In this document: piece after piece, positions 40,755 to 44,374 of the stretch
Position numbering within the stretch: the stretch's first letter is position 1
Layout of the letters: the number at the start of each line of letters is the position of its first letter
Assembly (NCBI RefSeq): GCF_030814995.1
Contig: NZ_JAUSVX010000025.1
Coordinates: 1-64,000, forward strand
Direction of reading: 5' to 3'
DNA: 64,000 nt
Origin: Labrys wisconsinensis
Lineage (GTDB): Bacteria > Pseudomonadota > Alphaproteobacteria > Rhizobiales > Labraceae
Translations under genes and position numbers: made by a program
Notes under the pieces: model-generated
The model's database searches: none
The model's input: only the letters and a program-made list of their open reading frames with translations
Told to the model about the DNA's origin: nothing

Positions 40755-41930
40755 ATGGCGTTGTTGCGGGAACGGGGCGCGCCGGCGCGCGTCACCAATA
40801 TCGAGCTCTTCTTCGACCTGGTCTTCGTCTTCGCGGTCACCCAGCTCTCGCACGGGCTGCTGGCGCATCTCACCGCCGGCGGTGCCGTGCAGACGCTGAT
40901 GCTGTTCCTGGCGGTGTGGTGGCTGTGGATCTTCACCAGCTGGGTCACCAACTGGCTCGACCCCGACAAGACGCCGGTGCGCCTCGCCCTGTTCGCGCTG
41001 ATGCTGGCCGGGCTCGTGCTCTCGGCCTCGATCCCGCATGCCTTCGAGAGCATGGGCCTGGCCTTCGCCCTCGCCCATGCCGGCAGCCAGGTCGGACGCT
41101 CCCTGTTCATGATCCGGGCGCTGGGCCGGGACAACCCCGGCAACCGGCGCAATTTCCAACGCATCACCGTCTGGCTGCTCGTGGCGGCTGCGTTCTGGAT
41201 CGCCGGCGGCCTCGCCGCGCCGGAGCCGCGCCTGGCGCTCTGGGCCGTGGCGCTCGCCATCGAATATGCCGGCCCCTCCGCCGGCTTCGCCGTGCCCGGG
41301 CTCGGCCGCTCGACCACGGCGGACTGGGACGTGGAGGGCCACCACCTCTCCGAGCGCTGCTCGCTCTTCGTCATCATCGCGCTCGGCGAATCCATCCTGG
41401 TCACCGGCGCGACCTTCGCGGACCTCGCCTGGGGTCCGGCTCAGGTCGCCGCCTTCCTGGCCGCCCTCGTCGGCAGCATCGCCATGTGGTGGATCTATTT
41501 CGACACCGGCGCCGAGCGCGGCAGCCACCACATCGCCGCGTCCGACGATCCCGGCCGGCTGGCGCGGCTCGGATATACCTATCTGCACGGATTGATCATC
41601 GCCGGCATCATCGTCTGCGCCGTGGCCGACGAGCTGGCGCTGGTGCACCCCGACGGGCACGAGGGCCATATCGACTTCGCCTCCGCCGCGGCGATCCTCG
41701 GCGGGCCGGCGCTCTATCTCCTCGGCAACACCCTGTTCAAGGCGACGCTGATCGGCCATCCCCCGCTGTCCCACCTCGCCGGCTTCGCCTTGCTGGCACT
41801 GCTGGCGCTCGCCGCGGCCTGGCTGACCCCGCTCTGGCTGGCGCTCGGCACCAGCGCCGCGCTGGTGGTGGTGGCGGGGTGGGAGACGGCCTCCTGGCGG
41901 CGAGGCGCGTCGGTGGCGCAGGGGCATTGA
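40755..41930 (+). CDS. Low-temperature-requirement protein A (LtrA) family membrane protein
   Basis: This is a 391-residue polytopic membrane protein, about ten hydrophobic helices. The family start NIELFFDLVFVFAVTQLSH is textbook, as are WWLWIFTSWVTNWLD and the central ERCSLFVIIALGESILVTG. LtrA was named from cold growth of Listeria; the biochemical role is unknown. It ends 21 bases from the convergent lyase-like gene. No signs of transfer. Confidence 0.9.
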   Translation: MALLRERGAPARVTNIELFFDLVFVFAVTQLSHGLLAHLTAGGAVQTLMLFLAVWWLWIFTSWVTNWLDPDKTPVRLALFALMLAGLVLSASIPHAFESMGLAFALAHAGSQVGRSLFMIRALGRDNPGNRRNFQRITVWLLVAAAFWIAGGLAAPEPRLALWAVALAIEYAGPSAGFAVPGLGRSTTADWDVEGHHLSERCSLFVIIALGESILVTGATFADLAWGPAQVAAFLAALVGSIAMWWIYFDTGAERGSHHIAASDDPGRLARLGYTYLHGLIIAGIIVCAVADELALVHPDGHEGHIDFASAAAILGGPALYLLGNTLFKATLIGHPPLSHLAGFALLALLALAAAWLTPLWLALGTSAALVVVAGWETASWRRGASVAQGH

Positions 41931-41950: not shown

Positions 41951-43447
41951 TCACACCCCCGCCAGCCCGCCGGCGCGGATCGCCTCCGCCAGGCGTGAGA
42001 CGTCGGGGCCGCTGGCGCGGTCCTCCTCCAGCTTGTCGACATGGCTGCGCACGAAGGCGAAGACGCGGGCGGCGCCCGGGCCGAGCTCGCCGCCGCCTCT
42101 GAGGTCGATCGCCTGCGCCGCCACGATCAACTCGCAGGCGGCGAGCACGACCAGGCGCGCCGCGCTCTCGCGCAGCTTGGTCACCGCCGCGGGCGCGTTG
42201 GCCGCATGGTCCTCGACGCCGTCGGCGACGTGCAGCAGCGCCAGCGTTGCCGGCTGGGCCCGGGCGCGGATCTCGCCCTCCAGCGCGCCGATCACCTTCT
42301 GCAGCGGCGCGAAGCCGGCGCGGCTCGGGCCGAGCGGAGTGAGGAAGCGCGGCTGGTCGGAATAGCCCGGCGACATCAGCTTCAGCGCCCGCTGGGCCGA
42401 GATGGTGGCGGCATGGGACAGGGCCTGGGCCAGGGCCTCGAAGCGCAGGGTGAGGCCGGTCATGTCGAAATTGCCGTTCGACAGCATCTGCCCGTCGATC
42501 ACCACCGGGTTGTCGCCGCTGTGGTTCAGCTCCAGCTCCACCGCGGCGGCAGCCTCGGCGAGCGCCGTGCGTGCCGCCCCGTGCACCGGCGCGGCGCAGC
42601 GGAAGGAGAGCGGGTCCTGCAGCCGGCGGGCCGGGCCGCGGTCGCCGAGATGGCCGCCGGCGACCAGGCCGAGCAGGCGCTTGGCCGCCGCGGCCTGGCC
42701 CGGCGCCGGCCGCGCGGCGTTCACCACCGGCAGCAGCGGCGAGAGATTGGCGCCGAAGGCCTCCATGGCCAGCGCCGCCGCGGCGTCCAGCGTGTCGAGG
42801 GCGAGGCGCGCGTCGACCAGCGCCAAGGCGCCGCGCCCGGCGGAAGCCGCGTTGGCGACCACCAGGGCGTGGCCGTCCTTGACGCCGAGCGCCAACGGCG
42901 CGAGCCCGGCTCGCGCCAGGGCGTCGGCACCAGGCAGGCGCGCGCCGCCGAACTCGGCCTCGCCCTCGCCGAGCAGGGCCACGGCCATGTGGGCGAGCGG
43001 CGCCAGGTCCGCCGCGCCGATCGAGCCGATCGACGGCACCACGGGGTGGAAGCCGGCGTTGAGCGCGGCGACCAGCGCCTCGGCCACGGCCGGCGAGACG
43101 CCGCTCTGGCCGACCGCCATGCCGGCGGCGCGGGCCGCCATCATGGCGCGCACCTCCTCGGCCGGCATGGCCTCGCCGACGCCGACGGCGCGGGCGAAGG
43201 GGACGCGGCGCTGGAAGGCGGCGAGGTCGGCGGCGGCGAGGCGCGTGTCGACCCCGGCGCCGAGGCCGGTGGTGAGGCCGTAGACCGGCACGTCCTCCGC
43301 CACATGGCGCTCGACCACGGCGCGGACCGTGGCCATGCGCTCGCGCGCCCCGCGCGACAGCGCCGCCGGGCGCCGGCCGCGGGCGATCGCCGCCACGTCG
43401 TCGACGGTGATGCTGTGGTCGCCGAGGATGACGACACCGTCAGGCAT
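41951..43447 (-). CDS. Aromatic amino-acid lyase (HutH-like) homologue lacking the MIO triad
   Basis: This is a 498-residue protein that aligns along the whole length of histidine ammonia-lyases: catalytic Tyr in VYGLTTGLG (residue 56), the KDGHALVVANAAS asparagine, a MLSNGNFDMTG segment, QDPLSFRC and the C-terminal EDHAAN. The site where active enzymes read GASGDLAP, whose Ala-Ser-Gly cyclises to the MIO electrophile, here reads GSIGAADLAP (141-150), one residue shorter and without Ser or Gly. The usual QDxYS tyrosine is Leu. It therefore cannot make MIO by the known route and probably has another chemistry. Function is open, and the label hutH would be misleading. It diverges from gloB with a large hairpin between. 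Confidence 0.8.
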   Translation of the reverse strand: MPDGVVILGDHSITVDDVAAIARGRRPAALSRGARERMATVRAVVERHVAEDVPVYGLTTGLGAGVDTRLAAADLAAFQRRVPFARAVGVGEAMPAEEVRAMMAARAAGMAVGQSGVSPAVAEALVAALNAGFHPVVPSIGSIGAADLAPLAHMAVALLGEGEAEFGGARLPGADALARAGLAPLALGVKDGHALVVANAASAGRGALALVDARLALDTLDAAAALAMEAFGANLSPLLPVVNAARPAPGQAAAAKRLLGLVAGGHLGDRGPARRLQDPLSFRCAAPVHGAARTALAEAAAAVELELNHSGDNPVVIDGQMLSNGNFDMTGLTLRFEALAQALSHAATISAQRALKLMSPGYSDQPRFLTPLGPSRAGFAPLQKVIGALEGEIRARAQPATLALLHVADGVEDHAANAPAAVTKLRESAARLVVLAACELIVAAQAIDLRGGGELGPGAARVFAFVRSHVDKLEEDRASGPDVSRLAEAIRAGGLAGV

Positions 43448-43535: not shown

Positions 43536-43579
43536 TCTAAGCAGCTTCCCGTGGCCGAAGCCACGAGAAGCTGCTTAGA
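43536..43579. repeat. 20-bp-arm hairpin in the hutH-like/gloB intergenic region
   Basis: TCTAAGCAGCTTCCCGTGGC (43536-43555) pairs with its complement at 43560-43579 with one mismatch around the loop CGAA. A second pair of AAGCAG/CTGCTT lies just left (43503-43508, 43520-43525). It would form in the leader of either divergent transcript. Confidence 0.75.
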
Positions 43580-43606: not shown

Positions 43607-44374
43607 ATGGCAGCGACGATCGACCTGTTCCTATGCCGCTCCGACAATTTTGGAGCCCTGATCCACGATTCCATCACCGGCCGCACCGCGGCGATCGACG
43701 CGCCGGAGGCAGCGCCGATCGAGGCCGCGCTGGCCCGACGCGGCTGGAAGCTTAGCGACATTCTGGTGACGCACCACCACGAAGATCATGTCGCCGGCAT
43801 CGCCGCCCTCAAGGCGGCCTGGAACTGCCGCGTGGTGGCGGCGAAGGCCGACGCCCACCGCATCCCGGCCGTGGACGAGACCGTGGCCGAGGGCGACCGC
43901 GTCGCGGTCGGCAGCCTCGAGGCCGAGGTGATCGACACGCCCGGCCACACCGTCGGCCATATCGCCTACTGGTTCCGGGCGGAGAGCGCGCTGTTCGCCG
44001 CCGACACGCTGTTCTCGCTCGGCTGCGGCCGGGTGTTCGAGGGCACGCCGGGCGAGATGTGGACGTCGCTGCAGAAGCTCCGCGCCCTGCCCGACGAGAC
44101 CCTGCTCTATTGCGGCCACGAATACACGCTGTCCAACGCCCGCTTCGCCCTCACCGTCGATCCGGAAAACGCCGCGTTGCGGACCCGCGCCGCCGAGGTC
44201 GAGCGCCAGCGGGCCGAGGGCCGCTTCACCCTGCCGGTGACGCTGGGGGCGGAGAAGCGCGAGAACCCGTTCCTGCGCGCCGACGACCCAGGGCTGGCCG
44301 CCGGCCTCGGCATGGCCGGAGCCGACCCGGTGGCAGTGTTCGCGGAGATCCGCGAACGCAAGAACCGCTTCTGA
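43607..44374 (+). CDS. gloB: Hydroxyacylglutathione hydrolase (glyoxalase II)
   Basis: This is a 255-residue binuclear-metal hydrolase that splits S-lactoylglutathione in methylglyoxal detoxification. The metal-binding THHHEDHVAG motif, the IDTPGHTVGHIAYWF segment and the CGHEYTLSNARFA motif are complete. The C-terminal glutathione-contacting helix contains ENPFLRADDP, which is diagnostic of glyoxalase II over other MBL-fold proteins. The cupin gene starts 20 bases later with a strong ribosome site, so they form an operon. Confidence 0.94.
   Translation: MAATIDLFLCRSDNFGALIHDSITGRTAAIDAPEAAPIEAALARRGWKLSDILVTHHHEDHVAGIAALKAAWNCRVVAAKADAHRIPAVDETVAEGDRVAVGSLEAEVIDTPGHTVGHIAYWFRAESALFAADTLFSLGCGRVFEGTPGEMWTSLQKLRALPDETLLYCGHEYTLSNARFALTVDPENAALRTRAAEVERQRAEGRFTLPVTLGAEKRENPFLRADDPGLAAGLGMAGADPVAVFAEIRERKNRF

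Follow-up and report, generated by a model that had tools for sequence, protein, structure and literature searches.

The gene at positions 41951-43447 of the window (the whole stretch of 64,000 nucleotides of Labrys wisconsinensis DNA that was analysed) raises the question of what a protein with the PAL/HAL fold can do when the segment that forms MIO is altered. The original prediction saw in it a candidate for a new chemistry or a pseudoenzyme. The answer favored here, in which catalysis, leaving group and substrate are all inferred, is that the protein is probably an active lyase that works without MIO, as ergothionase does, and would split a tertiary amine off an imidazole betaine. The gene and the residues discussed below are as follows.

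41951..43447, minus strand: lyase of the aromatic amino acid lyase family, assigned as MIO-independent, 498 aa (PF00221, homology, tree, model)
43280..43282, minus strand: Tyr56, predicted catalytic base (homology to HAL Tyr53)
43190..43192, minus strand: Arg86, which replaces HAL His83 (alignment)
42998..43027, minus strand: codons of GSIGAADLAP (residues 141-150), the shortened loop without the MIO serine (alignment)
42608..42610, minus strand: Leu280 in QDPLSFRC, at the place of HAL Tyr280 (alignment)
42599..42601, minus strand: Arg283, predicted carboxylate-binding arginine (homology to HAL)
42296..42298, minus strand: Lys384, the lysine of the MIO-less branch, Val386 in P. putida HAL (alignment)
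42212..42214, minus strand: Glu412 within VEDHA, HAL Glu414 (alignment)

The open reading frame in the window starts with the ATG at 43447. A longer frame with a GTG start reaches 43564; nevertheless, the Labrys orthologues align from residue 1 of the ATG form. The profile search assigns the protein to PF00221 over its full length (E=3e-126), while its scores against the HutH models TIGR01225 (349 bits, cut-off 539) and NF006871 (360 bits, cut-off 524) lie below the respective cut-offs. Orthologues with 74-76% identity are present in four other Labrys genomes, and the pairwise dN/dS of 0.18-0.29 at the larger distances among them indicates that the gene is under purifying selection.

The loop of HAL reads GSVGASGDLAP and that of the Labrys lyase GSIGAADLAP, with one residue fewer. 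Of the P. putida HAL residues, Ala142 and Asp145 are retained in the alignment, the latter as Asp147, while Ser143 has no counterpart and Ala146 takes the place of Gly144. The Ala-Ser-Gly triad is therefore absent, the loop being GAAD, as had been claimed from the DNA letters. A sequencing error or frameshift at this place is ruled out because the four other Labrys genomes keep the shortened loop in the form GS(I/V)GAADLAP, with V for I in one of them. The formation of MIO requires a dehydratable Ser (or Thr or Cys), and the segment Ala145-Ala146-Asp147 contains none of these. The HAL residues Tyr53, Gln277, Arg283 and Glu414 are retained as Tyr56, Gln277, Arg283 and Glu412, while Tyr280 is replaced by Leu280, in agreement with the prediction of a changed tyrosine in the QDxYS motif. 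The further claim that the rest of the active site is largely kept holds for these four residues, but the changes of His83 to Arg86, Asn195 to Val197, His330 to Asp328 and Val386 to Lys384 had gone unreported.

The family alignment used to compare these features comprises 40 sequences without MIO and 42 with it, some of them near-duplicates. The position of Lys384 is occupied by lysine in 35 of the 40 MIO-less sequences and in none of the 42 with MIO. Tyr280 is replaced by Leu, Ile or Phe in all 40, and position 191 is Asp instead of Glu in 36 of them and in the Labrys lyase itself. Tyr56, Gln277, Arg283 and Glu412 are invariant across the MIO-less set, and Lys384 is nearly so. The maximum-likelihood tree of 68 proteins is unrooted and contains two long rows and six of unusual composition. 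In it, a branch with support of 100/100 separates all MIO-bearing sequences, together with a GSVGY-type loss of MIO, from all sequences with the one-residue deletion. The Labrys lyase shares with the latter the shorter loop without Ser, Lys384, Leu280 and the tree grouping, and its assignment to the class of MIO-independent lyases, in which catalysis itself is deduced, is well supported. The MIO-less form was found in 11 of the 17 other alphaproteobacterial genomes that gave a match at E<=1e-70, out of 385 searched.

Within the MIO-less branch, the Labrys lyase falls in a large subclade (92/99) with sequences from Azospirillum, Rhizobium, Bosea and others. The Treponema denticola ergothionase forms its own group (100/94) with proteins from Polaromonas and Sinorhizobium (L108 and L109); the Labrys lyase lies outside this group, and its subclade is not nested inside it. 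The position of HAL His83 is His in the ergothionase group and Arg in most of the Labrys subclade. The pocket changes Arg86, Val197 and Asp328 suggest that the substrate is related, though not identical.

The structure of the T. denticola ergothionase (PDB 6s7j) is reportedly due to Maurer et al. (2019). It is the top phmmer match of the Labrys lyase with 256 bits, compared with 217 bits for HAL. It was also ranked first, by a slight margin, in the Foldseek search with the AlphaFold2 model of the Labrys protein (mean pLDDT 91.5, pTM 0.92). However, the VIA-align Z values of 45.5 for ergothionase and 46.0 and 45.6 for MIO enzymes do not separate them, and the fold by itself is therefore not decisive. 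An MIO-free lyase of the PAL/HAL fold is already a known kind, since ergothionase lacks MIO (PMC13405746) and has the same loop deletion. The GA-AD loop is also found in L108, the sister of the T. denticola enzyme. With the T. denticola enzyme as query, no close ergothionase was found in 398 Pseudomonadota genomes, where the best matches had 28-33% identity.

The neighborhoods of the relatives give some indication of the substrate. Relatives in the Labrys subclade, frequently labeled hutH, are found in operons for betaine import, with genes for OpuAC betaine-binding proteins, for permeases of the OpuB type and for a conserved protein of the ornithine cyclodeaminase (OCD)/mu-crystallin family. 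The expectation of misannotation is borne out by the hutH label of relatives on Rhizobium plasmids. An OCD gene is present at 13 of 33 MIO-less loci and at none of 27 MIO loci (Fisher p=1e-4, for loci that are non-independent and have flanks of varying extent). With 67-81% identity to one another, these OCDs remain similar where the lyases beside them have diverged much further, and they accompany both lyases of the Labrys subclade and L108, hinting at a pathway in common. On a Rhodobacteraceae plasmid, the two genes, for OCD and lyase, overlap. One cluster of the Labrys subclade, L114, adjoins HutU, HAL and a BCCT transporter. Genes linked to sulfur (YeiH, SsuA/PhnD-like and LLM monooxygenase) recur in several clusters and point to a sulfur-bearing substrate there, for which ergothioneine sulfonate would be a candidate. 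A search of the available open literature on the catabolism of ergothioneine sulfonate and on thiourocanate hydratase yielded nothing useful. Arg86 was considered as a mark of sulfonate substrates and dropped, as L108 has YeiH and OCD yet keeps His. In S. meliloti, the lyase of the ergothionase group adjoins a transporter operon with an annotated dimethylsulfoniopropionate lyase gene (L109, 13241-13909).

In another subclade, the OCD-lyase pairs L117, L120 and L155 adjoin genes for ketopantoate hydroxymethyltransferase and desaturase-like proteins, with a formyltransferase in L117; a C1-linked pathway is possible for these loci. Such neighbors, unlike a hut context, would fit an MIO-free lyase that acts on a betaine without imidazole or on another substrate with a good leaving group, coupled in the relatives to reduction by the OCD-family protein and to C1 metabolism. 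We regard this as a possible but rather doubtful reading of the Labrys protein, as the C1-type loci belong to a different subclade while that of Labrys includes the hut-embedded cluster L114.

In Labrys, the lyase gene is solitary, with no pathway genes beside it, and its neighbors are as follows.

40755..41930, plus strand: LtrA family protein (locus comparison)
43607..44374, plus strand: GloB-like hydrolase, divergent from the lyase (named from the HHHEDH motif)

Those Labrys relatives whose loci were compared also carry the GloB-like gene next to the lyase and divergent from it, which does not imply a functional link, and the LtrA gene was not found next to the lyase at the remaining Labrys loci that were compared. 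The spacer that separates gloB from the lyase contains, at 43536-43579 of the window, a palindrome with 20-nt arms. Its core was counted 13 times in the genome, against none for the reversed-pattern control, so it resembles an interspersed palindromic repeat. The OCD of the clusters is absent from the L. wisconsinensis genome (best match 27-31% identity). A linked OCD partner was also sought in the genus and rejected: three relatives lack it, and the one Labrys genome with an OCD has it away from any lyase.

Among the five PF00221 genes of the genome, two have an intact triad, one of them a canonical HAL, and three are without MIO, namely the lyase studied here, a GSVGY type and an SSVGAS-D type. 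The check for other hut genes that had been proposed thus found a canonical HAL, HutU and HutD. The canonical HAL (L044, G000:C4) adjoins a GntR/UTRA regulator and two Cucumopine_C-domain proteins. Its motifs recur in the HAL of pRi2659 (L112), which adjoins hutC, a DUF3830 gene and hydantoinase/oxoprolinase genes. The GSVGY type (G000:C34:38335-39693; L003, L046) reads GSVGY---ISHTAH, a three-residue deletion, and is nested in the MIO clade; in L098, L099, L102 and L103, a lyase of this type and a canonical HutH are arranged in tandem. The third (G000:C24:77231-78565; L005, L047) reads SSVGAS-DIVAMSQ, lacks Lys384 and has a long branch. It adjoins UbiD, amidohydrolase and M20 peptidase genes, and the same loop occurs in another Labrys genome (G004, L154).

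The partners expected for a lyase in the breakdown of ergothioneine are a paralogue of urocanase and an S-Me-THD protein. Both adjoin the lyases of Burkholderia, Paracoccus and L087, and the thiourocanate hydratase and desulfurase partners occur in L121, L122 and L087. The only urocanase of L. wisconsinensis adjoins HutD and is of the HutU type (77% identity to a HutU, 49% to the thiourocanate-hydratase type); the genome contains none of the latter type and no close S-Me-THD (24% identity). This bears on the proposal that the protein is an ergothionase in the strict sense, converting ergothioneine to thiourocanate and trimethylamine. The nearest solved enzyme, 6s7j, with its common loop and motifs speaks for it. 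However, the identity is only 32%, the tree position is apart from the T. denticola/L108/L109 group, the partner genes of the other clusters are missing and the pocket differs at the His83 position and at Asn56-Arg57 of the T. denticola enzyme, which makes a strict ergothionase unlikely.

A pseudoenzyme or non-catalytic role, which the lost triad and the lack of pathway neighbors in Labrys might suggest, is highly improbable because the remodeling of the active site (Lys384, Leu280, Asp191) is itself conserved; the constancy of the catalytic residues, the purifying selection and the location of close relatives in catabolic operons also speak against it. Least probable of all is an ammonia-lyase or aminomutase acting on a primary amine by MIO-free chemistry or an unusual MIO, for which the fold and the HutH name of relatives could be cited, but which is opposed by the loop without a dehydratable residue, the practically inactive MIO-less mutant S153A of PAL on L-Phe (PMC3903478), the score below the hutH cut-off and the canonical HAL already present in the genome.

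The preferred reading is that of an MIO-independent lyase acting on an imidazole betaine. By homology to ergothionase and from the context of the relatives, elimination of the amine from such a betaine is the most likely reaction, and hercynine, ergothioneine and ergothioneine sulfonate are candidate substrates. In the proposed mechanism, Arg283 would hold the substrate carboxylate, and Lys384 and Glu412, with Arg86, would bind and polarize the imidazole side chain, which possibly bears sulfur or a sulfonate. Tyr56 would take the beta proton and a tertiary amine, for example trimethylamine, would depart from the alpha carbon to leave a urocanate-type acid. The electrophilic MIO could be dispensable, a quaternary ammonium being in itself a good leaving group. 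HutU might take up the product in Labrys if this is urocanate, formed from hercynine, or a sulfonylated urocanate from which the sulfonate is removed later. Of the two alternatives originally offered, neither new chemistry nor a pseudoenzyme is favored: the chemistry is probably of the known kind, an MIO-free elimination of an amine, and what survives is that the substrate may be different.

A broader proposal can be made tentatively, and we consider it somewhat less likely to be right than wrong: the wide, mostly hutH-labeled clade with Arg for the imidazole-contacting His, often accompanied by one conserved OCD-family reductase, may serve as a module for the catabolism of some betaine that is not ergothioneine, with the Labrys protein as a stand-alone member having its own substrate. 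In many proteobacteria, including nodule rhizobia, there are hutH-named genes whose products cannot perform MIO chemistry, and predictions of histidine utilization from them are wrong for this reason. Through the enzymes of the MIO-less clade, soil bacteria probably obtain nitrogen and carbon from histidine-type betaines, and the many natural variants of the clade make the mechanism of an MIO-free lyase testable.

Three known systems come closest to the Labrys lyase. P. putida HutH (1b8f/1gkj) has the same fold and equivalents of Tyr53, Gln277, Arg283 and Glu414, but the identity is 34%, and the Labrys protein lacks Ser143 and Gly144 of the MIO and has Leu, Arg, Val and Lys for Tyr280, His83, Asn195 and Val386. 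The 'hutH' of Rhizobium pRL12 (WP_011649502.1) belongs to the same MIO-less subclade, with a GSIGAADLAPLA loop, Lys384 and Arg86; it lies in a betaine-uptake operon with an OpuAC transporter, OCD, YeiH, CoA-transferase, SDR and MaoC, whereas the Labrys gene is solitary. The T. denticola ergothionase differs in its separate clade, in having Asn56-Arg57 where Labrys has Thr59-Thr60 and in the His at the place of Arg86, and partner genes of the ergothioneine pathway are missing from the Labrys genome. However, it has the PAL/HAL fold without MIO and, in its loop SSIGEG-DITT, the identical one-residue deletion, and it shares with the Labrys lyase the motifs QDPLSFRC, KDG, the Gln-Lys pair, EDHA and AAQAIDLRG.
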